Position numbers and translations under genes: made by a program. Below, in pieces: positions 5,401-43,991 of a DNA stretch of 53,314 nucleotides. The stretch spans positions 121,252 through 174,565 of the forward strand of contig JANQQU010000026.1 of the NCBI GenBank assembly GCA_028284905.1, read 5' to 3'. Positions within the stretch are counted from its first letter, which is position 1; each line of letters starts with the position of its first letter. The notes beneath the pieces are model-generated. The model was not told the DNA's origin. It searched no databases and worked only from the letters and a program-made list of their open reading frames with translations. Source of the DNA: Calditrichia bacterium (GTDB lineage Bacteria > Calditrichota > Calditrichia > RBG-13-44-9 > J075).

Positions 5401-6585
5401 AATGAGATCGCCCGTTTTACCCCGACACTGAATGCCCGGCAATTTGCCGGCAAAGAACGAGCGGCACTGCTGAAAAGCCTGGGGCCATTCGATATTCTGA
5501 TTACCAGCTATGGATTATTACAGCAGGAAGCAGAATTGTTTCAGAAGCAAAATTGGTCAACCATCGTTCTCGATGAAGCACAGGCAATTAAGAATATGGC
5601 CACGAAGCGCTCCCAGGCCGCAATGAAGCTAAACGGCGGTTTCAGAATAATAACTACCGGCACGCCGGTGGAGAACCATCTTGGGGAGTTGTGGAACCTC
5701 TTTCGCTTCTTGAATCCCGGCCTGCTTGGATCATTGAATACTTTCAATGAGCGATTTGCCGGACCGATTCAAAAAGATAATAACCGGGACGTCCGCAATC
5801 AGTTAAAAAAGCTGATCCGCCCATTTATCCTGCGCCGCTTAAAAAGTGAAGTCCTCGATGAATTGCCCCCGAAAACGGAAATTACTCTAAAAGTGAATAT
5901 GTCCGAAGCGGAAATGAGTTTTTACGAAGCGCTGCGGCAAAAAAGTCTCTCCAGAATCACTGCGCTGGACGGCTCGGAAGGGGAACGACGTTTTACCATT
6001 CTTGCGGAAATCATGAAACTGCGCCGGGCTGCCTGCCATCCCCGCTTGGTGCTTCCCGAAAGCGATATCTCCAGCGCGAAACTGGCCTGTTTCGAAGAAA
6101 CGGTGGATGAACTGCTGGAAAACCGTCATAAGGTGCTGGTGTTCAGTCAGTTTGTCGATCACCTGAAAATTATCCGTACGCTGGTTGAACAGAAAGGGAT
6201 TCGCTATCAGTACCTGGATGGCAGCACACCGGTAAAAGCGCGTAAGCAGCGGGTAGAGGCGTTTCAGGGCGGTGAAGGAGATTTGTTTCTGATTAGCCTT
6301 CGTGCCGGTGGCACCGGGCTGAATCTCACTGCAGCAGACTATGTGATTCACCTCGATCCCTGGTGGAATCCGGCAGTGGAAGATCAAGCATCGGATCGGG
6401 CACATCGCATCGGGCAGCAGCGACCGGTGACGATTTATCGCCTGGTCAGCGGAAATACAATTGAGGAAAAAATCGTCAAGCTTCACGGACAAAAACGGGA
6501 TTTAGCGGACGATCTGCTTTCGGGAACCGGATCGAGCGGTAAGGTGTCTGCCAGTGAATTGCTGCGCCTGATCCGGGAAGGTTAG
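2440..6585 (+). CDS. large SNF2-family ATPase/helicase-like protein
   Basis: This 1381-residue protein has a C-terminal Snf2/HepA motor. It carries Walker A DDMGLGKT (Lys957), Walker B DEAQ (1045-1048), motif III TGTPVENHLGELW, and the motif V/VI region GGTGLNLT followed by DRAHRIGQ near 1325. The family translocates on duplex DNA and remodels protein-DNA complexes; unwinding is not implied. The first 90 residues look like a winged-helix domain, and the next several hundred are helical and TPR-like, then a mixed alpha/beta region of unknown function reaches about 900. AAGGA lies just before the ATG. Its stop is only 5 bases from the stop of the convergent gene at 6591. Its partner or target cannot be read from the sequence. 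Confidence 0.9.
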   Translation: MLDRISLMDNYAQLSPFSQAVVDVVAIAYSPLSPQRLFQILAEKRSGLRTDNDAAINPGILRDYLKDLLDKKLIVEKDGYICRPAIRGEILAAALEKSSTNRLLAAIREIMPAEATVNRYAYAQDQQQYLLRELNLAIFRGDVREYRRLTDLAGQRNQYYTIPGSFYRDVFTKPFRPQWFEDLPVYFQNLALEKVVQEEVVHFRPIDDFLPILENLLDSGAAVNNSLLSNQLLEIYMLRGDFPKVRQLLAEGTANGELLAWRGMLAFLEGNNDQAIATYALALKHFRKERKKRAIFFRHYNGLFYLLAMLKANNIAFHQEIEKNLRRVSKEDLPHQAAFRVVQAVLYSQMNQLMMARSELQHHQLNGLNGLVRMMLGLGAHWIFPRGKKIRKDNLSTLFERALKNGYKWPAFELARLLKIWEPRDQRYEKYASELGADLDIPGLLDLIPQMESWERSLRALQTIGKTENAGAFNGEAETRLVWWVDFEKNMISPREQKRKKNGGWTKGRAVALKRLAGNEVEGMTAQDEKIASAIQVSYGWYGQQEYYIETGKGFAALAGHPLLFLADNPEVRLELLRDDPTLIVEEAQRGFMIRFSIQFDREGYEIVRETPTRYKLIEVRREHLEILAAMGQQELAIPRAGKKQLLQAIRSISRRITIHSAISGQADEAEDLPANSSPLIHLLPWGDGFKLEIFVRPFAEGGPYFHPGAGGVNIFAEIDGKRRQTRRDLHEELRNARELIHLCPTLINRSTDDWEWQFESPEDCLQVLVELDDQLVKPQIEWPEGERLRISHRASFEQLSLTIQGKNDWFALDGKLTLDDKQVLSMQALLNKVENSRGKFIPLSENQFIALTERFRKQLDALRIFSEMDSDGTLKLHNLAALAIGDLTESVKNLQADGKWEKQLQRMREMEAHQPELPSTLQAELRPYQLDGYRWLSRLAHWGVGACLADDMGLGKTIQALAVILERAPGGPTLVVAPASVTFNWINEIARFTPTLNARQFAGKERAALLKSLGPFDILITSYGLLQQEAELFQKQNWSTIVLDEAQAIKNMATKRSQAAMKLNGGFRIITTGTPVENHLGELWNLFRFLNPGLLGSLNTFNERFAGPIQKDNNRDVRNQLKKLIRPFILRRLKSEVLDELPPKTEITLKVNMSEAEMSFYEALRQKSLSRITALDGSEGERRFTILAEIMKLRRAACHPRLVLPESDISSAKLACFEETVDELLENRHKVLVFSQFVDHLKIIRTLVEQKGIRYQYLDGSTPVKARKQRVEAFQGGEGDLFLISLRAGGTGLNLTAADYVIHLDPWWNPAVEDQASDRAHRIGQQRPVTIYRLVSGNTIEEKIVKLHGQKRDLADDLLSGTGSSGKVSASELLRLIREG

Positions 6586-7946: not shown

Positions 7947-10052
7947 CTATAAAAAGATGCTGAAAATATTCAGGTATTCCGGTTGATCAAGTATAAACTG
8001 CATCCAGAAAAGCCAGCGCATGCTTAGTTTGTTTTTGCCCAGGGAGGAGGGCGTAATCGCTTTACTGTTGTTGGTAAAATTTAAATCGAGAACGATTTTG
8101 TTCTCCGGGTCGACGGTGGCAGATTTCAGGCGCACTGGCAGGGTATAACTGAATTTATGCCAGAGCGATTCTCCATCCCAGGTTTCCCGGCGGATGCTGC
8201 CATCTTCAAAAACCACTTCTATTTCAACCGGAAAAATAAACGCTCCCAACCGGCGAAGATGAACTTCGCTATGATAGTATTCTTCAATATCAGATGTATC
8301 GGAAACAAGCGTTGCGCTTAAGTCTGTCGGATCAAACGTCTGGCTGCTGATCGTTTTTGTATAGTCGTGACCGGTGGCCGGCTGATAGGGGCGGGTAAAA
8401 ATCCGATCAACGGTATAATCCAGGATGGCATTATCGTAAAGCGCCTGATCAAAAAAGCGCTGCATATTCTTTCCGGATACCTCGTTTACGATATTAATAA
8501 AATCCTGCGATTTCGGATGCTTGAAACGCCAGCGGTCAACATATGTGCGAATGATGGCCTGCATGGTGCTGTCGCCGAGGTAGTTATGCAAAGTCGAGAG
8601 CATAACCGCCGGTCTGGAATAGGAATTAATACCGTAACTGCCATCAGAGTAATATTCCCAGGCGTTACGAACAATCGGGTCAACATCCGGTGCCCAAAGG
8701 TAGCCTGCCCGCTGTACGTGATGATTATTAACTTTTATGCCCAGTAAATCGATCAAGTCACCTTCCGGGCCATAGATGTGATTCATCGCGAGCATTTCTA
8801 AGTAAGAGGTAATTCCTTCATCCAGCCAGGTTTCCTCAAATTCATTGCTCGCAAGCATATGCTGAAAATAATTATGCCCAAATTCGTGAATGATCACCTC
8901 TTCCAAACGGTGTAAACCTTCCGGGGCGCCATAAAATGTTCGGGCAGTAAAAAACGTCGGATATTCCATCCCACCGGTACGACCGGCATTTCGACGGGGA
9001 TCAACGATTGTCAGGTTGGGGAATGGATAGTCACCATAGCGGTCCTGAAAAAATTCGACAGCAGCCCTGGCCGCTTCGATATGGCGTGGCCCTTGCTCCC
9101 GGTGGTCGGATTGGATCAGGGCGCGAATTTCCACATCCTGTGCTTGTCCCTTAAACTCCAGAAATTCCGGGCTGGTTGTCCAGGCAAAATCATGCACATC
9201 TTCAGCATGATAAAAGTGGGTAGCGGTACCATCTCCATTGTCGGTAGGCTCTCCGACAATGAGACCGGTGGCACCGAGCAGATTTTCCGAGGGGACGGTC
9301 ATCCAAACATTGTAAACACCGAAATCGGCGAAAAATTCCGAATTGCTATGAAATTGATGGCAGTTCCAGCCCTCATCGCTAAATACCCCGACTTTGGGAA
9401 ACCATTGCGCTACTAAAAAATATTCTTCCTTAAAACCGGTGCGGGCCAGTGGCGGCGTTGGTAATTTCGCGGAAAAATCCAGATAAAGAGAGATGCTTTC
9501 TCCAGGTGCAACTGCCGTCGGCAAAGCAACGCTGATAACAGATTTATCTTCGGTGTGGGCAGGTATATCCGGTTGAATAAAACGCGTTGCCGTACTCAAA
9601 TCTGTGCCGGGAATAGCTGCTGACGATTCTTTATCTATCAGAGAATAATATTGTTGAACATTGGTGGCGGGCGCCGGCAGCAACTGCAGGCGGTTGATGT
9701 CGATATATCCCCATTTTATCGAAGGGAGCGGGGTATCTATTAAGGAGCTGGCATATCCCTGCATGAAGGTGGAACGATTATTCCGGAAACCATTCAGATA
9801 GAGGTGGAACTGTAGCTCCTGCGTAGAAATGCTGGCCGTGTTTTTCCAGGTCAAAATTTGTCGTGCTTGTAGTTCGCCATTGTCGGTGTTTAATACGACT
9901 TTGATGTCGTAATTCGCGTTGCGGGGACTCAGCGGTTCGCTAAAGAGAACCGGCGGTGAGGGCGTCTGGGCAAGAAGAATCTGTAGAAATAACAGACTAA
10001 GAAACAGGCCTCGATGGATGAAAGTAAATGCCGCGCTCAAGTAATACTCCAC
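7947..10052 (-). CDS. secreted M1-family zinc metallopeptidase
   Basis: This 701-residue gluzincin has the zinc site HEFGH (His389, Glu390, His393) followed, after exactly 18 residues, by Glu412 in WLDEG, the canonical M1 arrangement. The substrate-binding GxMEN motif appears as GGMEYP at about residue 358. An N-terminal hydrophobic segment (about 14-28, ending LLAQ) is a signal peptide, so the enzyme acts in the periplasm or outside the cell. M1 enzymes are usually aminopeptidases, but substrate specificity cannot be told here. The extreme C-terminus is hydrophobic and aromatic. It is the first gene of a two-gene operon with the membrane protein at 6591-7931. Confidence 0.92.
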   Translation of the reverse strand: MEYYLSAAFTFIHRGLFLSLLFLQILLAQTPSPPVLFSEPLSPRNANYDIKVVLNTDNGELQARQILTWKNTASISTQELQFHLYLNGFRNNRSTFMQGYASSLIDTPLPSIKWGYIDINRLQLLPAPATNVQQYYSLIDKESSAAIPGTDLSTATRFIQPDIPAHTEDKSVISVALPTAVAPGESISLYLDFSAKLPTPPLARTGFKEEYFLVAQWFPKVGVFSDEGWNCHQFHSNSEFFADFGVYNVWMTVPSENLLGATGLIVGEPTDNGDGTATHFYHAEDVHDFAWTTSPEFLEFKGQAQDVEIRALIQSDHREQGPRHIEAARAAVEFFQDRYGDYPFPNLTIVDPRRNAGRTGGMEYPTFFTARTFYGAPEGLHRLEEVIIHEFGHNYFQHMLASNEFEETWLDEGITSYLEMLAMNHIYGPEGDLIDLLGIKVNNHHVQRAGYLWAPDVDPIVRNAWEYYSDGSYGINSYSRPAVMLSTLHNYLGDSTMQAIIRTYVDRWRFKHPKSQDFINIVNEVSGKNMQRFFDQALYDNAILDYTVDRIFTRPYQPATGHDYTKTISSQTFDPTDLSATLVSDTSDIEEYYHSEVHLRRLGAFIFPVEIEVVFEDGSIRRETWDGESLWHKFSYTLPVRLKSATVDPENKIVLDLNFTNNSKAITPSSLGKNKLSMRWLFWMQFILDQPEYLNIFSIFL

Positions 10053-10319
10053 TATCTTAATATAAGTCCGGTTGAATATAACAGGTTTTGCCCCGGATGA
10101 CTATGATCAGCGAAAGCTGAATATAACTCGACAAATTAGCAAAGATACGTCTTTAAATCAAGGTTACAGATAGGAAAGCTTCTTGAAATTCCTCAAAGCC
10201 ATTTGATATTTCCGGGGCATACCGTATCTTCTTCCGGGAGCATCGGGAGAAGGTGCAGCATCATAAATATTCGCATTTCTGAAAAATCGCTATAAAAACA
10301 TTCAACAGTGTAAAGTCAT

Positions 10320-11018
10320 ATGAGATATTTTGAAGGATATTCCTTCGAGGATCTGCTGGATGCACTTGTGAATCCTCCCTCCGATCATCACTATCAGCAA
10401 GCCTGGATGGAATTTCTGGAACGCTATCGTTTTACTATCGAGAGTGCTGCCAGGCATCGTTGTAACGGGTGGAATGCCCGTTCGCTGGATATGCAGCTCA
10501 GTGATGTCGTCAATGATGTTATTTCGGATGTCTTGCTTATCCTCTGTAAAAAGAACTGTAAGGCCCTGGCAGATTTTCGCGGCCGGGACAGTGAAGAACA
10601 ATTTAAGGGCTGGCTGCGGGTAGTAGCCAGTCGTGCTGCGGGACGCCGCTTGAAAAACAAGGCGTTTCAACGGGTCATTATTACCGAAGAGGACGGCGAA
10701 CGGAGTGACTTGCCAGACTATGTTATCAAGGATTACCTCTCCGGACTGGAACGGGATCAGGTCTGGGAATTATATGAAGATTGGGTAAACACTATCCGGG
10801 AAGTTAAGGGCAGCCGGAAAGGGAATACTGAGCGCGACATACACATTTTTATGCTTTATACTTTGTCGGATTTTACCCAGGAAATGATTTGTGATTTGCC
10901 GGGATTCGCGGATCCTGCCAGTGCTGACAAATTAGGACACCGGGTGGTGGATAATGTCGTTAATCGCCTCCGCAACTTATTGAAGGAACACTGGAACATC
11001 GATCATTTTAATGCTTAG
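10320..11018 (+). CDS. ECF-like sigma factor, paralogue A of the cluster
   Basis: The 232 residues resemble a divergent ECF sigma factor. A region-2-like segment (about 30-115) contains FLERYR, the acidic stretch VVNDVISDVLLIL and QFKGWLRVVASRAAGRRL, the usual position of core-RNA-polymerase and -10 contacts. A C-terminal helix-turn-helix-like region 4 (about 178-228) follows the motif RDIHIF. It shares the leader xxFEDLL-x-NPP, the AW-x-FLERYR block and the RD-x-HIF block with the genes at 11033 and 13671, so the three are paralogues. It is the first gene of the cluster, lacks its own ZAS-type partner, and ends 14 bases before paralogue B. The Shine-Dalgarno site is weak (GTAAAG). The sigma assignment is by pattern and context, not by close similarity. 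Confidence 0.7.
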   Translation: MRYFEGYSFEDLLDALVNPPSDHHYQQAWMEFLERYRFTIESAARHRCNGWNARSLDMQLSDVVNDVISDVLLILCKKNCKALADFRGRDSEEQFKGWLRVVASRAAGRRLKNKAFQRVIITEEDGERSDLPDYVIKDYLSGLERDQVWELYEDWVNTIREVKGSRKGNTERDIHIFMLYTLSDFTQEMICDLPGFADPASADKLGHRVVDNVVNRLRNLLKEHWNIDHFNA

Positions 11019-11032
11019 TGTGTTGGGTGGGT

Positions 11033-11677
11033 ATGGAATTTAAAGAAATGTTGTCAATACTACAGAATCCTCCGGGGAACGGCGGCGGAGGTGGTGATTA
11101 TCATTTATTTAATGAAGGATGGTCGCATTTTCTGGATAGATACCGGGCGTTAATCGCAACAACAGTCAAACGGTTTTGCGGGGAAAATAAGTTTACTAAT
11201 GCGTCGGAATATAACAAGTTTATTGATGATATCACCTATGATGTGCTGGAAATTCTGATCGAAAAAAACTATAAAGTGATCCGGCAAATTAAGGCTACCG
11301 CCGAATGGCAATTTAAAGGTTATCTTTTTATCGTCACAAAAAATGAATCGATTAAAGCATGTAAGAAGATCCCGCCAATAGACGCGTATGATGATAATGT
11401 TCGTGCAGATCAGCGGGAAGTCGTGCGGGAATTTGAAAACACCGGCTATCAACGTTGGGAAAATTTTCATAATATGGCATCATCAATTCGGGATAAGCAG
11501 GGGACGCGTTCCAAAAACCGGCACAGGGATTTGCATATATTCTTGCTGAGCAGTTTCGGCGGATTTAGTAATGAAGACATTTCCCGGGCGTTAAGTAAAG
11601 AGGGCGTTACGATGAAAATCGTAACCAATAGTATTCACCGGATCAAAGGTATGCTGAACAATCGATTACCGGAATAA
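11033..11677 (+). CDS. ECF-like sigma factor, paralogue B
   Basis: The frame extends to a GTG at 11018, but the ATG at 11033 is preferred because its product begins MEFKEMLSILQNPP, matching MEFQEMLKILQNPP of paralogue C at 13671. The 214-residue product keeps the FLDRYR block, an acidic helix (IDDITYDVLEILI), the QFKGYLFIVTKNE segment equivalent to sigma region 2, the NRHRDLHIF block, and a C-terminal region-4-like helix-turn-helix (FSNEDISRAL). A Gly-rich linker follows residue 15. The next gene, 18 bases downstream, encodes a ZAS-like protein, as expected for a sigma/anti-sigma pair. Confidence 0.7.
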   Translation: MEFKEMLSILQNPPGNGGGGGDYHLFNEGWSHFLDRYRALIATTVKRFCGENKFTNASEYNKFIDDITYDVLEILIEKNYKVIRQIKATAEWQFKGYLFIVTKNESIKACKKIPPIDAYDDNVRADQREVVREFENTGYQRWENFHNMASSIRDKQGTRSKNRHRDLHIFLLSSFGGFSNEDISRALSKEGVTMKIVTNSIHRIKGMLNNRLPE

Positions 11678-11695
11678 ATTTTGAAAGGCTTTTTA

Positions 11696-12064
11696 ATGGA
11701 TTATCCGGACGGACGCTTATTTGCATTATTGCAATTGAAATTGGATGGAGAGTCGCCCGCTGATCTCTCTGAAGAGGATCGGGCAAAAATAGAGGAACTG
11801 GAGCGCAAATTAAAGTCTCAGTCAACGGAGACATTATGGAAAAAAGTTGCGAAGGGATTGCCGAATCGTGAATGCAAAGATGAAAATGAATTCTTTGCCC
11901 GGGAAGACATCTGCCTGGGATTGATGTTTCATGGATTTAAAGATTCGGATGAGGATCGGAACCGTTACTTTCAGCATATGAATACCTGCTTCTATTGTTT
12001 TGAGTTATACTCCGATGTGATGCGCGGCTATCTGAGTGAACTTGAAAAGCATAAAAATCGTTAA
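11696..12064 (+). CDS. small ZAS-like putative zinc anti-sigma protein, copy 1
   Basis: The TTG at 11681 also opens this frame, but the ATG at 11696 aligns with the paralogue at 14311 (MDYPDGRLFALLQLKL against MDYNFGRLLALLKLKL) and has AAAGG at a good distance. The 122-residue soluble protein carries His94-x3-Cys98-x2-Cys101 (HMNTCFYC), the signature of zinc-binding anti-sigma domains, and Cys60, which is also conserved in copy 2 and could be a fourth ligand. In known ZAS proteins this motif sits in an N-terminal domain; here it is C-terminal and there is no membrane helix. Position directly after a sigma-like gene supports an anti-sigma role. The function is inferred. Confidence 0.6.
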   Translation: MDYPDGRLFALLQLKLDGESPADLSEEDRAKIEELERKLKSQSTETLWKKVAKGLPNRECKDENEFFAREDICLGLMFHGFKDSDEDRNRYFQHMNTCFYCFELYSDVMRGYLSELEKHKNR

Positions 12065-12095: not shown

Positions 12096-12126
12096 TTGAG
12101 AGAAAAATAAAAGTGTTGGCATCTAT
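12096..12126 (+). promoter_or_regulatory. candidate ECF-type promoter, site 1
   Basis: TTGAGAGAAAA starts at 12096 and TCT of ATCTAT starts at 12122, an offset of 26. The same offset between TGAGA and TCT is seen at 13531, 14706 and 16161. It lies in the 152-base gap between the first ZAS-like gene and the membrane protein at 12217, about 90 bases before the start. The gap is otherwise AT-rich with no gene. Promoter function is inferred from recurrence. Confidence 0.5.
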
Positions 12127-12216
12127 AAGCGTAGAAACTGGAAACGATAGCGTGTCGACAAGCAATCGCTAAATTAAGATAGGGTCAAAAATTAGCAGAT
12201 GAGAAAGTAGTAAAAA

Positions 12217-13455
12217 ATGGGCACAGTAATTAAGGTAACTCAAACCGAATTGGCCGGTTTTCTCGAGGGTAGTACCAGCGAGGAAATCCGCCGTAAAGTA
12301 GATGATATCCGCCGGGATTATCCCGAGTATGATATGCTTCTGGAAATGGCGCAGGAGGCCTGTCAGGATAGTAATGTTCAGCTTCCGGGAACGCCTCCGG
12401 ATAGTACACTCACACCTTCGGAGCTGGATCAGTTGTTGATGGATTTGTATGCCAACACAGCTTCTACTTCAGAAAAACAACGCTTTATCGATCATTTAAT
12501 TCATTCAGAATCCTTCTACGAAAGACTACTGAAAAATTTCCTGGAAACTCACGAGGTGATGCAGGATGCGGAAGCGCTGGCTGCCAGTGGTAACTACCTG
12601 GGGAGCAAAAGCAATGAAACCCTGTTGCGGGAAGTGGGCATCTTTCAAGAAACACCTGTAGAAGTATTTAAAGAAAAGAAGCAACCTGAAAGGCCAGGGC
12701 TTATCCAAACGTTTGTACATTGGATGCAAGATGAAGGACTACGCTATGCGATACCGGCAGCAGCAGTTGTGTTGATTGCATTTGCCAGTCCTGCTATATG
12801 GTCGCATTATAATAATCCTTTTAATAAGCAGAATTACGATAATGCTGCACCATTTGCATATAATCAGTCCGCCCTGAATGAAGCCTTGAGCGGTCTGCCC
12901 AGTGGTTTACGGAGCAGTGACACCCGGGGCGAAAACAATTTCCACGGTCATTTTACGGCGATGGGCCGGGTAATGCCTGCGACAATTCTGAAACCGTTTG
13001 AAGATCGCGCCTATCGGGACGTGGTGGAAAATGTTGCTTTAAACCAGCAAACTGCTGATTCGCTCGAAAAGTGGATTATAACTTTAAGCGATACCGATAG
13101 TTTGCCTGATTCTCTTAGCAATAAATTATCCCTCGCTCGCGAAATGGTTCATGCCTACTATCTCCATACTGGAGCAGCCAGTCTGGCACTTTACCTCAGC
13201 AAAGATGCCGATGCCCGCAGTAAATCGAAAGCGGCGCATTTGCAGGATGCTGAAAAGTGGTTAAGCAAAGCAAAAACCCTGGCAGAACAGTACGGACATT
13301 CCGCTCTCGATCAGGAAAATTATTTCCTGGGATTAGCTTATGCCTATCATTACGACAAAGCAAAAAATCAACTGGCGATCGACGCATTTAATGCGGTGCA
13401 TTCAGAGAGCAGCTTCTATGAGAATGCCCGAAAAATGAAAGAATGGCTGCAGTAA
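12217..13455 (+). CDS. single-pass membrane protein, putative membrane anti-sigma/sensor, copy 1
   Basis: The 412-residue protein has no signal peptide. The cytoplasmic part contains two repeats of the helical pattern seen at the start of anti-sigma proteins (QTELAGFLEGSTSEEIRRKV at 9-28 and a related block at about 70-105). One membrane helix follows at about 176-196, then a conserved outer segment PFAYNQSALNEAL and a helical TPR-like C-terminal domain (about 280-412) with alternating Ala/Tyr/Leu helices. It aligns without gaps to the protein at 14817 over the first 130 residues. By the positive-inside rule the TPR-like part lies outside the cytoplasm. I infer a signal-transducing anti-sigma or a sensor for one; the family is not named. 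Confidence 0.6.
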   Translation: MGTVIKVTQTELAGFLEGSTSEEIRRKVDDIRRDYPEYDMLLEMAQEACQDSNVQLPGTPPDSTLTPSELDQLLMDLYANTASTSEKQRFIDHLIHSESFYERLLKNFLETHEVMQDAEALAASGNYLGSKSNETLLREVGIFQETPVEVFKEKKQPERPGLIQTFVHWMQDEGLRYAIPAAAVVLIAFASPAIWSHYNNPFNKQNYDNAAPFAYNQSALNEALSGLPSGLRSSDTRGENNFHGHFTAMGRVMPATILKPFEDRAYRDVVENVALNQQTADSLEKWIITLSDTDSLPDSLSNKLSLAREMVHAYYLHTGAASLALYLSKDADARSKSKAAHLQDAEKWLSKAKTLAEQYGHSALDQENYFLGLAYAYHYDKAKNQLAIDAFNAVHSESSFYENARKMKEWLQ

Positions 13456-13464
13456 TTTACAACG

Positions 13465-13504
13465 AAAGCAAATATCCCATCCCCCGGGATATTTGCTTTT
13501 TTTT
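13465..13504 (+). terminator. rho-independent terminator after 12217-13455
   Basis: A perfect 14-bp stem (AAAGCAAATATCCC at 13465-13478, GGGATATTTGCTTT at 13486-13499) with a 7-base loop is followed by a T run to 13504. It closes the first sigma/anti-sigma unit 10 bases after the stop codon and separates it from the second unit. Confidence 0.9.
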
Positions 13505-13530
13505 GCTTTTTCAAAATAACTGAAATATTT

Positions 13531-13561
13531 CTGAGAAAATTTCCTACCCATTTCACTCTTA
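13531..13561 (+). promoter_or_regulatory. candidate ECF-type promoter, site 2
   Basis: CTGAGAAAA starts at 13531 and TCTTA starts at 13557 (offset 26). Over 30 positions it matches site 4 at 16161 in 23 without a gap; both lie just downstream of a terminator. It is about 112 bases before the start of sigma paralogue C. Confidence 0.55.
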
Positions 13562-13670
13562 ATAGACAAGCTGGAAAGAATTGACGCTAATTGGCGATGC
13601 GGGCTTCGCTAGTTATGTCATTTTTTCAAATAATTCAGTACTAGTCATATAAATCTGTAAGAGGAATGGT

Positions 13671-14321
13671 ATGGAATTTCAAGAAATGTTGAAGATTCTC
13701 CAAAACCCTCCAGATACATCTTCGGGGCGGAAATATCGCCAATACGAAGCGGCCTGGAGCTATTTTATGGAGGATTTTCGGTCAGTAATGGAAGCGACGG
13801 TTGTCCGGTATTGTGGCCGAAATAGATTCGGTACTAATAGAGCATACCGGGACTTCATAGACGATTGCGTGGCGGAAGTGTTGTTGATCCTGGTAAAGGA
13901 TAATAACCGGGCAATACGCAGCTTCAAGGGAAAAACCCGTGGGCAATTTGCTTCTTACCTTTGGCAAATTACCAGACATGTAACGTTTAAACTCGCCCCT
14001 CGTGATAATATCGAAGTAATATCAGAAGGATCAATTCTTCCCCCAAGTACCCGCAGGGATATTTTTAATGAAATTTCAGTGCGAATTCGAGAAATGCAGG
14101 ATACGGCGGAAAAGAAAGGCCGGAAGGCAAAAAATCGTCACCGGGATTCCACAATATATTTCTTTAGTGATCAACTGGTCGATTTGGGACTAGGTGGTTT
14201 TACCGATCAAGAAATATGCCGTATCCCTTTCCTGCAAGGCACGAGTGAAAATGTTGTGCGGTTAGCAAAATTTCGTATCCGTAGATTATTGCAACTGTCG
14301 GGAGGTAAATATGGACTATAA
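13671..14321 (+). CDS. ECF-like sigma factor, paralogue C
   Basis: The 216-residue product begins MEFQEMLKILQNPP and follows paralogue B closely: AW-x-YFMEDFR, the acidic helix DFIDDCVAEVLLILV, a region-2-like segment FKGKTRGQFASYLWQITRHV, the KNRHRD block, and a C-terminal helix-turn-helix-like part (GGFTDQEICRI). It heads the second unit, behind its own candidate promoter and the terminator of the first unit. The GAGG Shine-Dalgarno and start of the following ZAS-like gene lie inside its 3' end, an 11-base overlap that implies translational coupling of sigma and partner. Confidence 0.7.
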   Translation: MEFQEMLKILQNPPDTSSGRKYRQYEAAWSYFMEDFRSVMEATVVRYCGRNRFGTNRAYRDFIDDCVAEVLLILVKDNNRAIRSFKGKTRGQFASYLWQITRHVTFKLAPRDNIEVISEGSILPPSTRRDIFNEISVRIREMQDTAEKKGRKAKNRHRDSTIYFFSDQLVDLGLGGFTDQEICRIPFLQGTSENVVRLAKFRIRRLLQLSGGKYGL

Positions 14322-14709
14322 TTTTGGACGGCTGCTTGCCCTTTTAAAATTAAAGCTGCTCGGAGAGCTTCCGGATGATGTAGAAATATCGGAATTGGAA
14401 GCAATTGCAGAACTGGAAGAGGTTTTGCGAACTCCCGAGACATTCGACAAATGGATTACCCTTTGCAACGATTTACCGGTAGCTGAGTGCCGCGAGGATG
14501 ATTTTATCCTTTCAGACCAAGTTGCGCTTATTGGGCTGTTTTTCCTGGGCTTCAATGGATCAGAAAGTATGCGGAACCGTTTTTTTCTGCACCTGATCAA
14601 CTGTTTCTACTGCTTTAACAGTTTATGCGAGGTGCTGCGTGGATATCTGGATACCATGGACAGTAATAATCTGCCGCAAGACGGCCACCTGGTATTGGAT
14701 TTTCCGTGA
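14311..14709 (+). CDS. small ZAS-like putative zinc anti-sigma protein, copy 2
   Basis: The 132-residue soluble protein is a paralogue of the one at 11696. His94, Cys98 and Cys101 (HLINCFYC) and Cys60 fall at exactly the same residue numbers in both, which supports a zinc site. The start is fixed by GGAGG 5 bases upstream and by alignment with copy 1. It overlaps the sigma gene by 11 bases. The tail after residue 118 is unlike copy 1. Its stop codon forms part of the next candidate promoter. The anti-sigma role is inferred from motif and coupling. Confidence 0.62.
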   Translation: MDYNFGRLLALLKLKLLGELPDDVEISELEAIAELEEVLRTPETFDKWITLCNDLPVAECREDDFILSDQVALIGLFFLGFNGSESMRNRFFLHLINCFYCFNSLCEVLRGYLDTMDSNNLPQDGHLVLDFP

Positions 14710-14736
14710 GAATAATTCTGCAGAATTTCTATCTAC
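14706..14736 (+). promoter_or_regulatory. candidate ECF-type promoter, site 3
   Basis: GTGAGAATAA starts at 14706, overlapping the stop codon of the ZAS-like gene, and TCT of ATCTAC starts at 14732, again an offset of 26. It lies about 83 bases before the membrane protein gene at 14817, the same relation as site 1 has to its paralogue at 12217. Confidence 0.45.
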
Positions 14737-14816
14737 TATTATGAAAGCGATTTTGTTTTAGGCGATTATAAATCGTAAAAACAGAAGTTTAGGAACTTAA
14801 AAAAGAGAGCGATAAT

Positions 14817-16079
14817 ATGAGCGTAATGATCAAGTTACCACAAACAGAGCTGGTGGGATTTCTCCGCGGGAATTGTAGCGAAGAAACCAATCGGAAGGTA
14901 AGATATCTCCGAAAAGAATATTCTGAATATGAGCGGTTATTGGAGATTGCCGAAGATGTCTGTCAGGACAGGGCAATAGATTTGAATATCGATCCCCCGG
15001 AGCGTATGATGGCATCGGAAGATTTCAACCAGTTATTAGAAAATCTTTATACCTGGAATTCAACCCGGGAAAATAAACAACAATTTGTTAAATACCTGTT
15101 TCACTCGGAGACCTTCTATGAAAAGTTGATGACTAATTTTCTTGAAGCGGAAGAAATAATGTTAATGGCGGAAGCGTTCCCCATCATAGAAGAATTGCCA
15201 CTGGGTAAAAGTGATCGAGAATTTTTACAGGAATTGGGAATTGATAAAGAACCAAATCGGATCTGGGAAAAAGTTGCGAATGCTTATAATACTTTCCTGG
15301 AAAATACGTCCACCTGGTGTTCTGTCGGATTAGCGAAATTACTGGAAATACTTAATCGCGGTCCAAGAGTGGTCATTCCTTTGGCTTTAACCTTTTTAAT
15401 ATCCTGTAGCGGTGTCACCCGGGTGTCCTGGCTGCATTATGCATCGCCATTTAAGGATCGTCAAATTCAGGCTGAGCCATTCGCGTATGACCAAAGCTTA
15501 TTGGGACAGGCATTTACGGAATTACCAATGAATATGCGGAGCGGTGAGGAAGTTAATAAAGAAGCCTTTATACGGGACTACGAGCAAGCCGGTTGGGCAT
15601 TAAAAACACTGTTGCCGGTATTTCAGGCAAAGGACTATGACACTTTTCTGGAGAATGTATCCCAGGAACATTCAAGAATCGCCACTCTGGAAATGGAGAT
15701 TGAAAAAATGAATCGCTCCGGAAATTTACCGGATACCCTGCGCAGAAAACTACCCTCCGCCCAGGGTATGGTTCATGCATATTACCTGCATAGTGGCATT
15801 TCCAGTCTGGCACTGTATCTCGATCGGAATAAAGCTGTTGACGATATACCGCGCCGGGATTACCTGTTGCAAGCAGTTAAGAACCTTCAAAAAGCAAAAA
15901 CACTTTCCGGTAATTATGGCTACGCTTCCCATGAGCAGGAATCCTACTTCCTGGGCATGGCCTTCGCATATTTTTATGAGGATGAGAAAAATGAGATGGC
16001 TATAAAGAATTTTTCAGAAGTGAAGCCGGAAAGTAAGTTTTACGAGCGTGCACAGAAATTGAAAGATTGGTTAGAATAA
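14817..16079 (+). CDS. single-pass membrane protein, putative membrane anti-sigma/sensor, copy 2
   Basis: The 420-residue protein is a paralogue of the one at 12217. Its cytoplasmic part starts with PQTELVGFLRGNCSEETNRKV, keeps the HSETFYEKL block (His96 region) and Cys49 found in copy 1, and has one membrane helix at about 184-206. The outer part opens with PFAYDQSLLGQAF and ends in a TPR-like helical domain. The region between the second repeat and the helix (about 140-185) differs from copy 1 in length and sequence, so the two may pair with different partners. It closes the second unit before a strong hairpin. Confidence 0.6.
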   Translation: MSVMIKLPQTELVGFLRGNCSEETNRKVRYLRKEYSEYERLLEIAEDVCQDRAIDLNIDPPERMMASEDFNQLLENLYTWNSTRENKQQFVKYLFHSETFYEKLMTNFLEAEEIMLMAEAFPIIEELPLGKSDREFLQELGIDKEPNRIWEKVANAYNTFLENTSTWCSVGLAKLLEILNRGPRVVIPLALTFLISCSGVTRVSWLHYASPFKDRQIQAEPFAYDQSLLGQAFTELPMNMRSGEEVNKEAFIRDYEQAGWALKTLLPVFQAKDYDTFLENVSQEHSRIATLEMEIEKMNRSGNLPDTLRRKLPSAQGMVHAYYLHSGISSLALYLDRNKAVDDIPRRDYLLQAVKNLQKAKTLSGNYGYASHEQESYFLGMAFAYFYEDEKNEMAIKNFSEVKPESKFYERAQKLKDWLE

Positions 16080-16096
16080 GGTTTAGTCGGAAACGA

Positions 16097-16127
16097 ACAA
16101 GGTATCCCGTTTTTCGGGATACCTTGT
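16097..16127 (+). terminator. hairpin, probable terminator after 14817-16079
   Basis: A perfect 13-bp inverted repeat (ACAAGGTATCCCG at 16097-16109, CGGGATACCTTGT at 16115-16127) has a TTTTT loop and lies 17 bases after the stop. The tail is A/T-rich but lacks a clean T run, so termination may be partial. Confidence 0.7.
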
Positions 16128-16160
16128 AAAATGTATATTTATTAAAAAAGTTAGATTAAT

Positions 16161-16191
16161 TTGAGAAAAAATCCTGCCCGATTCCCTCTTA
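16161..16191 (+). promoter_or_regulatory. candidate ECF-type promoter, site 4
   Basis: TTGAGAAAAA starts at 16161 and TCTTA starts at 16187 (offset 26). It is the best match to site 2 (23 of 30 positions). It lies about 285 bases before the metalloprotease gene, so a transcript from here would have a long leader. Confidence 0.55.
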
Positions 16192-16473: not shown

Positions 16474-18264
16474 ATGAAAAAGCAGCCAGTTACTGTTTAT
16501 AATACACGTAACCGCTTTGTCCTGCGACCGGAAGTGCTTAGCCTGACACTTGGAATCTTTTGGTCTTGTGTAGTATTCATTTTTACCCTGGCAGCAATGG
16601 TCGATGGAAAACTATCTGGCCTGCCGGAAATCTTGGCCGGAATATATCCTGGTTATGGGTTGTATGGCTGGAGTTTTCTGGCCGGAATCGGATGGGCGTT
16701 TTTAAGCGGATATCTACTGGGATATTTTATCGGCCTAATGTATATAGTGCTTCCTCGTCGGCAACTTCGTAAAAAATCTTCGCCATTATTTAGAATTAAT
16801 ACAGATCAAAACGCCAATGTTATTCAGGAAGGTGTTGGCAAAGATCCTTATACCATTGTATTTGTCGCTAACCCTTACGTGCTTCCCCTGGAAGGCGATG
16901 GTAGACCAATGGTTGACCCGATCATTAATAACCATGGCCTTTTTCTAAAAACCGTTACCCGCTGCCTTCGTAGCTTTCTGGGAAATGAACTGATGCGCCA
17001 GCCGGATATATTCCAGCAAATGCGCTTTATAACCGTTTTTGATCATGACCATAAAGTATCCGAAAAGAATACAAATGAAGCGCTGTGTGAAGGAGTCAGT
17101 CTGGACACCAGTGCATTGGCGCCACGCCGTGTGAGGCGGGATGATAATGGTAATGTGAATAAAAACTTTGTGCTGGACTATGTGCTGCAGCAAATAGAGA
17201 ACAGCAATATAAAAGGGCCGTTGGAAATCGATGTTATTGCCATTATTTCTGCTGACCATACGTACACCCGCTCGGCTGCCCGGTTTAGCGAAGATAATCC
17301 AAATAGAGGCGGCAAAAGATTTACCTTTACTTTTTTTGAACCGGGTACCGCACCGCAGGAAAAATACCATTATCGCTATGCCAACGTACCCGGTATGTTT
17401 GCCCTTTCTGCCTGGGACGACCGTTTGAAAACCCCGGTACACGAATTTGCGCATGCAATGAGTGATATCGACAACGGCGCCATCGACGACGAATATATCG
17501 ATGAGTCCCACGCTGCATTGGAGTTTCGGGTAAACAAGAAATTTCGCGGCGGCTTTATGGTCTCCGATTGGATGGCAAATGAATTAGCCGATCTCAATTA
17601 TGATAAACCGGAAGATCAGGAATTTATAGGGCGGCTCATTGCGCCAAATACAGGCATCAAATGTGAAGTTTTTGACACACAACAAGCTTTCTTGAACAGT
17701 GCACAAGCTGTCATTAACAATGATGAAGTTTTTTCCCGTTATCGGGAAACAATACTAAAACTGGCACGTTTCCGGACGGTTTTCCGCTTGGACAGTACCG
17801 CCCTGGCCAATTTACAGCCACTATTACCGACTGAAGTATTCGAACGTTTGGACAGTGAATTGCCGCGGCTCAATAAGGATTTTATCGATAAAAAAGAGTT
17901 TCTGGATGAATTGAAAGACGTTCTGAAAGCGCCAAGGGATAATGGCAATAAAGATTTCGAAAAATACAAGCTACTGATTCTGCGTTTTGCGAATGTTCAT
18001 AATTATGCCATTCCCCGGGAATTTGCCCGTTATCGATTTAATGGGGCAGAAAAAGTATATGATTCCGACCGAAAACGTGGCGATAAGGAGATGCATTGGG
18101 TTTCTTACACCCCGGCCCGCTCCCAGGAACATACGACCTGTATTATGGATAGTACTTCCCGGGAATACCGCTTCGATCAACTGGTCTTTGATTTTATGTA
18201 TGACCGCTTGATGACAAAAATTGAACGTAATCATCTGACGCCGCAACCTTGCGAGCGTGCGTGA
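16474..18264 (+). CDS. membrane-anchored putative zinc metalloprotease (M64-like HEFAH...DEY)
   Basis: The 596-residue protein begins with two membrane helices (about 21-43 and 66-93) holding IYPGY between them, a module also found alone at 22415-22816. A soluble domain follows with HEFAH (His323, Glu324, His327) and, 11 residues on, DDEY (338-341). This resembles the HExxH...DEY arrangement of M64-type peptidases, though the spacing is longer. Arg/Lys-rich ends before helix 1 and after helix 2 (RRQLRKK) predict that the catalytic domain faces the cytoplasm. The remainder is helical and unrecognised. It heads the third unit of the cluster, behind candidate promoter 4 and a strong Shine-Dalgarno. 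The substrate is unknown; the membrane anti-sigma-like proteins upstream are possible ones. Confidence 0.65.
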   Translation: MKKQPVTVYNTRNRFVLRPEVLSLTLGIFWSCVVFIFTLAAMVDGKLSGLPEILAGIYPGYGLYGWSFLAGIGWAFLSGYLLGYFIGLMYIVLPRRQLRKKSSPLFRINTDQNANVIQEGVGKDPYTIVFVANPYVLPLEGDGRPMVDPIINNHGLFLKTVTRCLRSFLGNELMRQPDIFQQMRFITVFDHDHKVSEKNTNEALCEGVSLDTSALAPRRVRRDDNGNVNKNFVLDYVLQQIENSNIKGPLEIDVIAIISADHTYTRSAARFSEDNPNRGGKRFTFTFFEPGTAPQEKYHYRYANVPGMFALSAWDDRLKTPVHEFAHAMSDIDNGAIDDEYIDESHAALEFRVNKKFRGGFMVSDWMANELADLNYDKPEDQEFIGRLIAPNTGIKCEVFDTQQAFLNSAQAVINNDEVFSRYRETILKLARFRTVFRLDSTALANLQPLLPTEVFERLDSELPRLNKDFIDKKEFLDELKDVLKAPRDNGNKDFEKYKLLILRFANVHNYAIPREFARYRFNGAEKVYDSDRKRGDKEMHWVSYTPARSQEHTTCIMDSTSREYRFDQLVFDFMYDRLMTKIERNHLTPQPCERA

Positions 18265-18292
18265 GCAAACGAAATCGAGGAAGGAAAAGAAT

Positions 18293-19288
18293 ATGAATCC
18301 GCTGCATCCGAAATTACGCCAGGCTTTATTGCAAGATAAAACGCATCGGAGAAATGGCTTAACACCTTCGCGCCTACTGGAGTATGAACAGCTAGGTGGA
18401 CAACTTTATTATACCATTCATTATCCGGAACGGCCGCTAAAAACAGAGGATTTGGAAATTCTTGTGCTGGATGAAGAAGTCCTGGGAAATATTTGCAATA
18501 ATCAAGTTAAATCAGGAATAAACTTATGCAGCGTTTTGGAAGATATTTATTACGACCACCAAGCAGAGTTTAACGAACCACATACGGCGGATGGATTGAT
18601 AGAGAGTTTGAAAGAAAAAACGGATGATCCGGAAGCAAAGAAGATTATTGAGAACGGCCGGGAAACGATTCTCGCAAATGTGAAAAGGAAGCTGCGCCAA
18701 TATCGGGTGACGCCTGCCGTAACTCGTCGTTTGGCGGAAGAGGGCGTTGATTGCCAGGTGATAAAAATTCTTGAAAAGATTTACCCGCCGATTATTGATG
18801 CAGCGGTAAAAGATCCCAAGTCGGATAAATCAAAATCCGCAAATATTAAGAAAGAAGACCGGCAGAGCAAAACCTTTTATAGTGCAGATGAATTTGACGC
18901 TGCATTAAGAGAATATTTCGGGGCCGACAATCCAGTTCTGGATGCATACTACGAATGCAACAAAGAGCGCATTTTTGATGCCGCGACAGTGGTAATACCA
19001 ACTGGCCCGCTTGTTTTTGGTTTATCTGAAACGGATCTACGTCAGAAAATTGCTGACTTCCGGAGTCGATTTATGCCGCGCTACCCGCAAATCCATGCCG
19101 ACTGGGTAAAGCAGCAACAAAGAATCATCGATCGTTCTCAATTCGATCTTACCTGGAAAAATTTCTTCTTTTTCATTCACCTGGGCCGCTCGCTTGATTT
19201 TGCCGGAAAGTTGATTTATCGGAAAACCTTTTTTCCGATTTTTGATAAGATTGGGGACTGGTGGGGAGCACTTTCGGTTAAAAGGTAA
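18293..19288 (+). CDS. hypothetical protein of the CHAT/metalloprotease cluster
   Basis: The frame reaches a GTG at 18257 inside the preceding gene, but the ATG at 18293 has AGGAAGGAA at the right distance and gives a 330-residue product beginning MNPLHPKLRQALL. I do not recognise it. It has no signal peptide and no clear membrane helix; the only hydrophobic patch is FFFFIHLG near 295. It is charged and helical, with a Lys/Ser-rich linker near 185-200 separating two halves, and a Cys-containing segment ICNNQVKSGINLC near 70-82. Placed between two proteases in a tight operon (29 and 38 base gaps), it may be an adaptor or a substrate. No function can be read directly. Confidence 0.6.
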   Translation: MNPLHPKLRQALLQDKTHRRNGLTPSRLLEYEQLGGQLYYTIHYPERPLKTEDLEILVLDEEVLGNICNNQVKSGINLCSVLEDIYYDHQAEFNEPHTADGLIESLKEKTDDPEAKKIIENGRETILANVKRKLRQYRVTPAVTRRLAEEGVDCQVIKILEKIYPPIIDAAVKDPKSDKSKSANIKKEDRQSKTFYSADEFDAALREYFGADNPVLDAYYECNKERIFDAATVVIPTGPLVFGLSETDLRQKIADFRSRFMPRYPQIHADWVKQQQRIIDRSQFDLTWKNFFFFIHLGRSLDFAGKLIYRKTFFPIFDKIGDWWGALSVKR

Positions 19289-19326: not shown

Positions 19327-22300
19327 ATGATACAAATGATAAAAAAATATTGGGTGCTGCTGGTAGTGGTGTTCACCATTGCTGCGATCTCGGGATGCGA
19401 CAATTCTCAGGAAATAGAAAAACAGGCAATTGCCGCAGAATTAACCCGGATAAACTATAATGATCGTTTCGTTTCCATGGATGATGCTGTGGCATTCCTT
19501 TATAATCAACGCCATGATTATTTGCAAGCCAATAAGGATCTGATCATTGATGATCAGAAGAATTTTATCTACACCTCTCTGCTGCTGATTAACAATGGCT
19601 TGAGTTCTCGTTTGAATGGTCGCCTTGCTGCCTCAGATTCTATCTTGGACTATGCTCAGATTTTTGCTTCGTTTTTTAATGAAGCCTTTGATGACCGTTT
19701 CTTGCAGGAAGAACTAGCGTTCAGCAGGGGGTTGAATGTAGAAAGATTGCAGGTTCGCCAGGACCTGAAAACACTTGTTTACAAAGCCGGAAAATCTGGC
19801 GACAAATTAAAGGCATATAAAGATGTATTAAATATGGCTCGTTCACTTCAATATCCCAAATTGCAAGTTGAAATAATTCGGAAGATACAATTTAATCTTA
19901 ATAACGAAAATAAGTATGAGCAGTCGCGACTCTACGGAGAAGAGGGGTTGAAGATTGCCCGACAAATTAATTACCGTTCAGAATTATGTAAGGTTTTACG
20001 AAATTTGGGGAATAGCTACATTAACCTGGGTGATTATCATAAAGCGATCAAATCTTTTGATGAAGGGATATTTTTTGCCCGGAGCTTGAGAGATAAAGAA
20101 ATGGAGATGAAATTAATTGCCCGGAAAGGTATTGCCCACGCTGAGCAGGGTGAATACAATAATGCTATGGCCGCATATAATGAAGCGATACGTCTTGCGA
20201 CTAACTATGCCGACTCATCCTATTTTAGTAAGCTTTATAATGATCGAGGGCTATCCCTGATGTGGATGGGGCTTTACGATAGTGCTAAAGTGGATTACTT
20301 CCGAGCGTTGGAATTGCTGAAAGCTTCGACTATAGGGGATAGTGTTAAAAGCGATGAGGCCGAGGAAGTTGCCAATACCACCTCCAACCTGGGTATTCTT
20401 TATCAGTGGGTTGGGAATATGAAAGCAGCAGATACAACCCTTAATAATGCATATCGGATAATCCGGCAAATTGATGAAAAGGATGATTTCGTCAATATGT
20501 TGGATAATCTTGGTGATTTATACCAGGAAATGGATAGCCTGGCCCTCGCGCTTAGTTATTACCAAATGGCCTCGGCTACCATTAAATCCTGCAAAGAGGA
20601 TAACACCAATCTGCCGAAAAAACTGGAAGCAGAAGTTTTCATCAGTTGGGGAAATGCTTGCCTGCGGAAAGCGGAGGCATTAAACCAGAAGGGAGATAAA
20701 CAAACAGGCAATGAGTTTCTACGATTGGCATTAAATAATTTTGATGCAGCTTATGCTGTAATCGGTGACTTGGATGTGCCGAGCGAAATTGCCCGGGCGC
20801 TAATCGGCCAGGGGAAAGCCTATCGCTTGGGAAGTCAGTATCAGGCTGCAATGCAAGTGTTACGAAAAGGCATTGCTATTGCAAAAGAACTACGGGATCC
20901 GCTAGTATTGCTCGATGCTCAATTTACCTTGAGCCAGGTGTATCAAAATCGTGGGAACATAGAGGGGGCCAGACAAGCACTTGAGGTCGCTATTGAAACT
21001 ATTGAGACCTCCGGCGAGAATGTTAGCGGAAAAAATCGCTTAACTTTTTTTGCGAAGCGGCAAGACATCTATGATGAAATGATTCTCTTCCAAATGAGAA
21101 ACGATCGTTTCGAGGAAGCTTTTCTCTATAGCGAAAGCTCCCGGGCCCGATCTCTAATTGACGTCATTGAAGAAAAGAATCTTTGGCAGGCAAATGGGCA
21201 ACCGGTTTCCAGTATCTCGGATATTCAAAAAAGCCTCGGTGAGCAGGTGCAATTAGTAGAATATAAAGTTACCCGGAATGAGTTGCTGATTTTTGTAGTT
21301 ACCGGCAATACTTTTTATGCGCCGATTAGAATATCGGTGTCCCGCGATAGCCTCTCAAAATGGGTGATCGATTATAGAAAAGCAATTGGTGCGGACGAGA
21401 ATAATGCGTTTGAAGCGGAAGTAAAATTTATTGCTAAGGAACGTTTTCTAAGCGGGGCGAAAGCAGGACAACGCTTACATGAATATTTGATAAAACCGAT
21501 AGAAGAAGATTATCTGGATAAAGAGAAGGTTTTGTATATCGTACCAGATGAGGTGCTTAGCTATGTGCCATTTGATGGATTAAATACCACAAAAAGCGGG
21601 AATCATTTTCTGGTAGAAGATTATACTATTGCTTATTCACCCAGCGCCATTGTCCTGAAATATATTTTAGATCATCCCCGCGTGCCAGTTTCTCCAGAGG
21701 AAGATTTATTCTTCGGTGTGGCGAACCCGACGTTTGATTTACCGGGAACGGAAAAGGAAATCGATAATAGCTCCCGTTATTTCAAGAAAAAACCGGAAAT
21801 TTTGAGAACATATAATTCGAACGAAGCAAAAGTGATGGAAGCTTTGCGGCGTAGTCCGGCTGTCATTCAATTTTCCACCCATGCATTTACCAGCTCGGAT
21901 AATTCCAATTATCATTCAATCGTGGTAGGAGCGAAGATGAACAGACAGTCTGCCGAAGAATTCGTTAAGCTCCGAAATCATTCAAAGGCAGAACCTTTAT
22001 TGAATGATGATCAATTAATGGTTTATGAAATTGCCCAGCTGGATTTAAGTAAAACTAAATTTGTAAACCTGCCCGGGTGTAATACTGGTGGTGGCTTGCT
22101 CTATCGCGGTGAAGGAGTCGTCGGTATTACGACAGCTTTTATGAAGGCTGGTGTTCCATCGGTGATGTCTACGCTGTGGAAAATACGCGATGAAGCATCG
22201 AGTGAATTAATGACTGCTTTCTTCGCTAACTGGATGGGCAAAGACAGTGTTTCCCGGGCAGAAGCCCTCCGCCAGGCAAAGTTGGAGATGATTGTAGATA

Positions 22301-22371
22301 TGCGAGCGAAAAACGGCTATCCATTTCCTCACCGTTGGGCCGCCTTTGTAATTAATGGGGATAGTTTTTAA
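19327..22371 (+). CDS. TPR-CHAT lipoprotein (caspase-like peptidase)
   Basis: The 1014-residue protein starts with a lipoprotein signal peptide whose lipobox is ISGC (Cys24, followed by Asp). About ten TPR-like helical repeats fill residues 150-600, including a typical NLGNSYINLGDYHKAIKSFD. The C-terminal CHAT domain (about 690-1014) has the catalytic pair His852 in STHAF and Cys918 in LPGCNTGGG, followed by GEGVVGITTAFMKAG and STLWKIRDEAS, so the active site looks intact. CHAT proteins are clan CD proteases related to caspases and separase, often switched by their TPR part. Export as a lipoprotein places it on the periplasmic side of a membrane. It lies 38 bases after the unknown protein and 43 bases before the two-helix protein. 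Confidence 0.85.
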   Translation: MIQMIKKYWVLLVVVFTIAAISGCDNSQEIEKQAIAAELTRINYNDRFVSMDDAVAFLYNQRHDYLQANKDLIIDDQKNFIYTSLLLINNGLSSRLNGRLAASDSILDYAQIFASFFNEAFDDRFLQEELAFSRGLNVERLQVRQDLKTLVYKAGKSGDKLKAYKDVLNMARSLQYPKLQVEIIRKIQFNLNNENKYEQSRLYGEEGLKIARQINYRSELCKVLRNLGNSYINLGDYHKAIKSFDEGIFFARSLRDKEMEMKLIARKGIAHAEQGEYNNAMAAYNEAIRLATNYADSSYFSKLYNDRGLSLMWMGLYDSAKVDYFRALELLKASTIGDSVKSDEAEEVANTTSNLGILYQWVGNMKAADTTLNNAYRIIRQIDEKDDFVNMLDNLGDLYQEMDSLALALSYYQMASATIKSCKEDNTNLPKKLEAEVFISWGNACLRKAEALNQKGDKQTGNEFLRLALNNFDAAYAVIGDLDVPSEIARALIGQGKAYRLGSQYQAAMQVLRKGIAIAKELRDPLVLLDAQFTLSQVYQNRGNIEGARQALEVAIETIETSGENVSGKNRLTFFAKRQDIYDEMILFQMRNDRFEEAFLYSESSRARSLIDVIEEKNLWQANGQPVSSISDIQKSLGEQVQLVEYKVTRNELLIFVVTGNTFYAPIRISVSRDSLSKWVIDYRKAIGADENNAFEAEVKFIAKERFLSGAKAGQRLHEYLIKPIEEDYLDKEKVLYIVPDEVLSYVPFDGLNTTKSGNHFLVEDYTIAYSPSAIVLKYILDHPRVPVSPEEDLFFGVANPTFDLPGTEKEIDNSSRYFKKKPEILRTYNSNEAKVMEALRRSPAVIQFSTHAFTSSDNSNYHSIVVGAKMNRQSAEEFVKLRNHSKAEPLLNDDQLMVYEIAQLDLSKTKFVNLPGCNTGGGLLYRGEGVVGITTAFMKAGVPSVMSTLWKIRDEASSELMTAFFANWMGKDSVSRAEALRQAKLEMIVDMRAKNGYPFPHRWAAFVINGDSF

Positions 22372-40575: not shown

Positions 40576-40684
40576 GCGTTTTAATATCTTTAACTTTTAC
40601 ATTCAAAATTGAGAATTGAATATTCGAAATTGAGTCTTTATCCAGATTTATTCGTCTTGCTTATCACAATTACAGGAGAAAAAA

Positions 40685-43699: not shown

Positions 43700-43818
43700 A
43701 TTAATTCGCTCCCTGAAATTTATCCGGCGTGTCTGCCGGCAGATAAACATCTACATCGTTTCGCTTATAGAGTGGGGGATGGGAAGAAAATTCTCAGAAG
43801 ATGGGAAATAGTTAATAT

Positions 43819-43896
43819 TTGTAGAGACGATTCATGAATCGTCTCTACAAATATTCATGAATCGTCTCTACAAATATTCATGAATCGTCTCTACAA
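43819..43896. repeat. GTAGAGA palindrome with two tandem half copies
   Basis: A perfect 32-bp palindrome (43819-43850, centre TTCATGAA, arms TTGTAGAGACGA/TCGTCTCTACAA) is followed by two exact 23-base copies of its right half preceded by ATA (43851-43873, 43874-43896). A sister palindrome with changed arms lies at 45134-45163, on the other side of the transglycosylase gene. Confidence 0.9.
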
Positions 43897-43991
43897 CGAT
43901 CCCCTTGCATTCCATCCGGAAAGCGATTATGTTAGAATGATATTCAGGCATTGGTAACTGTAACAGAATCAACAATAAACGTGGGATTTCG

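Follow-up and report, generated by a model that had tools for sequence, protein, structure and literature searches.

Four copies of the bipartite motif TGAGA-N20-TCT in a gene cluster of a Calditrichia bacterium are, judging from sequence comparison, probably promoters of the extracytoplasmic function (ECF) type, recognized by the cluster's own divergent sigma factors, which are ECF-like. The cluster lies in a window of 53,314 bases, which is the whole stretch of DNA analyzed (C54:121252-174565, from a genome of 8.55 Mb), and it encodes three sigma-like proteins, two small proteins, proteins of 412, 420, 596 and 343 amino acids (aa), and a TPR-CHAT protein. Forty genomes of the phylum, all of one single class, were compared, and the homologous loci with names belong to Calditrichota and to the candidate division KSB1. 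What this comparison showed directly is the motif with its orientation and conserved positions, its association with the cluster, and its conserved unlinked targets.

Motif sites in the window

Site 1 (12097-12124, + strand) is located between a small Cys/His gene and the 412-aa gene, site 2 (13532-13559, +) precedes the third sigma gene, site 3 (14707-14734, +) the 420-aa gene, and site 4 (16162-16189, +) the run of the 596-aa, 343-aa and TPR-CHAT genes. The original prediction had placed these sites at 12096, 13531, 14706 and 16161, with a fixed offset of 26 bases between the two boxes; the four sites and the constancy of the offset are confirmed, with coordinates one higher and a start-to-start distance of 25 bases, the TCT beginning at the 26th base. 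For sites 2 and 4, a recount gives 24 of 30 matching positions in place of 23. The T of TGAGA is followed by the next same-strand start after 120, 139, 110 and 312 bases at sites 1 to 4, respectively; measured from the motif end, the distances are about 80-285 bases, in agreement with the predicted 80-290. A terminator-like hairpin (13464-13500) stands directly before site 2, and site 3 shares bases with the stop codon (TGA, 14707-14709) that ends the gene before it.

The form with all the positions described as invariant, TGAGA-NN-A-N12-T-NNNN-TCT, has exactly four matches in the window, all on the + strand, against 0.10 expected by shuffling (mean of 100 shuffles, largest count 1); the T at +21 is not conserved in relatives. 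The core TGAGA-N20-TCT has two extra matches, each shortly 5' of a same-strand gene, and at 27 other spacers (8 to 35) the core counts in the window have a mean of 0.93 and a maximum of 3. These candidate sites are found at 40610 (40610-40637, +), 75 bases before a DinB_2-family gene (40685-41194), and at 43796 (43769-43796, -), 46 bases before the gene of an 801-aa Wzz/ParA-like protein (41345-43750, -). Beside the latter, a 23-base unit that includes CGTCTCTA occurs three times (43830-43898).

The + strand ahead of the first sigma gene (10320) has no site (best position weight matrix score -1.8), as had been predicted; a weak divergent candidate, TGAGG-N20-TCT (10168-10195, -; score 5.9), for which no function is claimed, points away from it toward an M1-peptidase gene (7947-10052, -).

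Conservation, direction and unlinked targets

The motif was followed in 15 sigma loci, 14 from relatives and one, L081, being the second cluster of the same genome. TGAGA-Nk-TCT has 15 matches in these loci at k=20, 11 of them near the sigma gene in 9 of the 15 loci, and 11 matches at k=18, a second peak due to the same sites where the second box reads TCTCT; the remaining spacers have a mean of 1.8 and a maximum of 6. In L070, L079 and L081 the site is present with a single base of the second box altered, and a recognizable site occurs in 12 of the 15 loci. The alignment of 31 sites gives the consensus TGAGA[AG]AAA-N13-nnC-TCT with T-rich flanks, in which relatives conserve AAA (offsets 6-8) and C (offset 24); the distance between the boxes is 25 bases in 31/31, the sites having been gathered at that offset. 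An AAC core is typical of many ECF -35 boxes and is lacking in some ECF groups; box 1 of the motif, TGAGA[AG]AAA, does not have it.

The same pattern emerges from a scan, made independently of the predicted motif, of all pentamer-N12..24-trimer dyads in 13 of the 15 loci, which left out the window and the near copies L070 and L075. Raw counts were unusable, being dominated by A/T words, and normalization for composition fixed the ranking: TGAGA-N20-TCT is the top-ranked dyad, present in 8 loci against 0.47 expected (p = 2e-9), while the best value in 12 Markov resamples is 5e-7. Seven clusters of five genera have the site at the same place, between the small gene and the gene of about 400 aa.

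In the genus g17 (L071, L075, L077 and L080), a second like site was seen beyond the CHAT gene, some 4.3 kb downstream of the first one; the next gene past it appears, by eye, to encode a SusC/TonB receptor-like protein in L071, L075 and L077, and SusC- and SusD-like genes follow in L080.

At the genome level, the predicted pattern has 17 matches in the genome of the window against 8 for the reversed pattern. Thirteen of the 17 are followed by a same-strand gene at no more than 390 bases (one overlapping the preceding stop codon), three are inside reading frames and one is ambiguous, whereas 1 of the 8 reversed controls precedes a gene (Fisher p = 0.004; 9/13 and p = 0.017 without the four window sites). 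The scan of this genome, which the original prediction had proposed, revealed enrichment before genes, and the equal frequency in random intergenic sequence that the prediction named as a refutation was found neither in shuffles nor in reversed controls. The genomic sample of 776 kb includes several stretches chosen because they hold matches, so its counts were not used for enrichment; coding counts in it show no peak at spacer 20 (14, other spacers 2-19).

The strict form TGAGARAAA-N13-GTCTCT was searched in the 40 genomes, of which 15 are cluster-bearing (14 by search, plus G001) and 25 are not. Cluster-bearing genomes account for all 10 of its exact matches, of which 8 are at the cluster; only the absence elsewhere is informative, since the pattern was shaped on cluster loci. 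With at most one mismatch, matches and reversed controls are 36:13 in cluster-bearing and 17:29 in the other genomes (p = 0.0003, or p = 0.002 with G001 counted as negative); without the matches at the cluster, the cluster-bearing genomes still give 23:13 (p = 0.014), and G004 alone has 9 matches against 0 reversed controls. The form taken from the genome of the window, searched with at most two mismatches in the 39 relatives, gives 63 matches against 46 controls (summed), which are mostly noise. G001 had been scored as sigma-negative because its contig ends before the sigma gene, and a strict-form match alone revealed its truncated cluster; this match has on one side the end of a frame that reads HLNNCYQCF and on the other the gene of a 403-aa protein belonging to the 400-aa family (hhalign probability 99.9). 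G001 has three strict-form matches, and the other of the two examined lies inside a reading frame.

Conserved targets are also found away from the cluster. In the genome of the window, contig C31 has two sites, before a histidine-kinase gene and before the gene of a GAF-SpoIIE phosphatase, and the strict-form search recovered the same two genes in G004 (phosphatase 72% identity). The GAF-SpoIIE orthologues of five relatives of the same family have 55-71% identity, and the site precedes the gene in all six genomes of the family in which it is retained; the second box follows at 25 bases and reads TCT in five of them and CCT in G006. The four nearest homologues outside the family, from genomes without the sigma, have no site (best score 4.65). 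Column identity upstream of this gene in five genera is 0.73 and 0.53 in the blocks that hold the boxes and 0.24 in the spacer. The histidine-kinase gene has the site in 3/3 genomes where the gene was found. Since unlinked genes carry sites, the motif is more than a cluster promoter.

Cluster proteins and weighing of the readings

The sigma-like genes encode proteins of 232 aa (gene 1, 10320-11018, +), 219 aa (gene 2, 11018-11677, +) and 216 aa (gene 3, 13671-14321, +). They are not called by Pfam, and of 17 family members 12 match ECF profiles of NCBIfam weakly; the family stays below the cut-offs of both Pfam and NCBIfam. The AlphaFold2 model of sigma 2 (predicted local distance difference test, pLDDT, 79.7) resembles ECF sigma domains: the comparison with known structures gives AlgU with probability 1.00 and sigma-E with TMt 0.67 for region 2 (4lup) and 0.65 for region 4 (2h27), the E-values of the whole model being no better than 0.006.

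Genes 2 and 3 are followed by the small proteins of 127 aa (11681-12064, +) and 132 aa (14311-14709, +), both with the motif H-x3-C-x2-C, which is present in the window and in several small proteins of the same family and is lost in family f6. The signature of zinc anti-sigma (ZAS) factors is H-x3-C-x2-C with an upstream Cys, and the 127-aa protein is a putative member of this type. The 412-aa protein (12217-13455, +) has one hydrophobic stretch and a TPR-like C-terminal half and may be a membrane anti-sigma factor or a protease target; the 420-aa protein (14817-16079, +) is its paralogue with 40% identity. Profile searches against the Protein Data Bank (PDB) with the 400-aa and small families gave TPR or chance matches only. 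The 596-aa protein (16474-18264, +) has a holin-like N-terminus, an NF037947 match (7.4e-10, below the family cut-off) and no Pfam match; its HEFAH motif seems, by eye, zinc-peptidase-like, and the place of its gene is taken by a 598-aa protein in L083 and a 416-aa protein in L070. The 343-aa protein (18257-19288, +) has no assigned family, and its N-terminus resembles a 264-aa gene of L070. The run ends with the TPR-CHAT protease-like protein of 1014 aa (19327-22371, +); all nine proteins scanned, this one together with eight encoded at further loci, have CHAT and TPR domains, and the dyad residues His and Cys of CHAT, both present in it, are retained in 10/10 aligned proteins. In clusters of this sigma family, the sigma is accompanied by a small Cys/His protein, a TPR-like protein of about 400 residues and a TPR-CHAT protease. 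Genes resembling caspase-family proteases by eye are also found near the sigma clusters of L079 (5011-8310) and L081 (15905-17959) and are possibly more effectors of the same network.

Elsewhere in the window, 2440-6585 (+) and 36025-38193 (+) encode helicases with strong PADLOC matches to DpdE and DpdF, which are probably SNF2 and RecQ-like helicases of the ordinary kind. At 53238-53314, ACTGCC repeats extend to the contig end and probably mark the point where the assembly broke.

Several observations weigh against promoters read by the cluster sigmas. No site was found near the sigma in the g18 clusters L076, L078 and L082, in the paralogue loci L083 and L084 of the same genome, or in four KSB1 sigma loci, one of which, L109, encodes a sigma that is clearly a member of the family. 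The exact TCT is lost in L070, L079, L081 and the phosphatase site of G006. The genome carries several paralogous sigmas, and the model of the small protein found no match among known anti-sigma folds. With a matrix made from 11 sites of relatives, site 1 ranks first (26.5), site 4 second (20.7) and site 3 fourth (13.1) in the window, against a best score of 15.6 on the reversed window, and site 2 has a low score (9.1); this ranking and the specificity of the strict form are partly circular, because the sites were picked with the originally predicted motif.

The paralogous sigmas give some room to another explanation, in which the sites are promoters of a different sigma, for example a general-stress ECF, governing the cluster together with the phosphatase and kinase genes; the commonest site form of the genome, TGAGAAAAA-N11-TTCCCTCT, precedes unlinked genes. 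This explanation is rather unlikely, as exact strict-form matches are confined to genomes with the cluster, most of them being at the cluster itself, the phosphatase homologues of four cluster-less genomes have no site, and the same motif is found in relatives with a single copy of the sigma. Operators for a dimeric transcription factor are more improbable still: TGAGA...TCTC(A) is partly an inverted repeat, and the complementary halves GAGA and TCTC, seen in many sites, account for the spacer-18 peak, but a true inverted repeat would end in TCTCA, whereas 30 of the 31 sites have T at offset 27, and no TTT mirrors the AAA that follows box 1. Moreover, the sites are oriented toward the gene, the spacer is unconserved, and no helix-turn-helix gene was noticed on reading the conserved cluster. 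A chance likeness among AT-rich gaps, where A-rich stretches are common and from which many of the weaker matches in relatives do arise, has a negligible probability, being contradicted by the shuffles, the spacer scan, the dyad scan and the orthologous footprint. The original proposal of a candidate cluster promoter with ECF-like spacing is the reading with the best comparative support, given by a top dyad obtained without the window, by directionality, by the footprint and by the random spacer.

A possible circuit and its relation to known systems

It is well established that ECF promoters can have -35 boxes specific to their group (PMC3426412, PMC6767563), and the target promoter of ECF41 is TGTCACA-n16-CGTC (PMC3426412). 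The sites described here are like those of ECF41 (PMC3426412) and Streptomyces sigma-E (PMC6767563) in having two short boxes with a near-fixed spacer, a group-specific -35 box and a -10 box with a TC core, and in occurring both in the sigma's own neighborhood and at unlinked genes. They differ from those of ECF41 in the boxes themselves, with TGAGA[AG]AAA in place of TGTCACA at -35 and nnCTCT in place of CGTC at -10. The promoter type is thus already known, and the motif with its module appears to be a variant without a published description among those found; the literature search, whose coverage of subscription papers was limited, gave nothing on either.

The accessory module of type III-E CRISPR systems (CASP/Craspase) includes the TPR-CHAT protease Csx29, Csx30, Csx31 and CASP-sigma (PMC10028731, PMC9729208). 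Csx30 inhibits CASP-sigma, for which full-length Csx30 is required (PMC10028731); it is found in a complex with RpoE and is a cleavage substrate of TPR-CHAT (PMC9729208). Some of the targets of this sigma belong to its own locus, and the inhibitor of the sigma is cleaved by the protease (PMC10028731, PMC9729208). As in the systems these reports describe, a TPR-CHAT protease stands here beside an ECF-like sigma with other proteins between them (PMC10028731, PMC9729208). Unlike type III-E, no CRISPR array or Cas7-11 was seen here, no Csx30 or Csx31 family match was obtained, and the scan of 20 window proteins gave no Cas family, weak helicase-type matches excepted. The NCBIfam profile of the type III-E sigma, NF041236, matches 4 of the 17 sigmas weakly and those of the window not at all at 0.01. 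Membership in the type III-E CASP module was rejected, and the likeness was kept as a lead.

In the mechanism that we infer, which covers the promoter role, the identity of the reading sigma and the trigger, TGAGA[AG]AAA would be the -35 box and nnCTCT the -10 box, kept 25 bases apart. The first sigma operon (10320-12064), which has no TGAGA site, would use a different promoter to supply basal sigma, which would start transcription at the TGAGA promoters. Sites 1-3 would then raise the 412-aa and 420-aa proteins and the second pair of sigma and small protein, site 4 would raise the gene run ending in the TPR-CHAT protease, and the unlinked GAF-SpoIIE phosphatase and histidine-kinase genes would also be activated. 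If the cluster sigmas read the sites, the sigma would therefore turn on its own regulators. On the basis of the gene order, the Cys/His motif and the precedent of type III-E, the small Cys/His protein, the 412/420-aa protein or both may hold the sigma inactive, and the CHAT protease may free it by cleavage.

A broader idea, which is tentative and rather doubtful at present, is that of a CRISPR-free, phylum-wide module in which the caspase-like TPR-CHAT protease cuts a dedicated anti-sigma and releases an unclassified ECF group that reads TGAGA[AG]AAA-N13-nnCTCT promoters, driving the cluster and a conserved phosphatase/kinase regulon; such a module would be a stand-alone counterpart of the sigma-protease arm of type III-E CRISPR and might even have given rise to it. 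For the Calditrichota, on which there is little regulatory work in the literature searched, the motif supplies a promoter code, open to testing, for a sigma family that escapes current profiles. It also points to the targets of the module and reveals the module in broken assemblies too, as in G001. Should the CHAT protease indeed free the sigma, the cluster would be a case of a caspase-like protease wired to transcription outside CRISPR and would offer a simple model for the type III-E arm.

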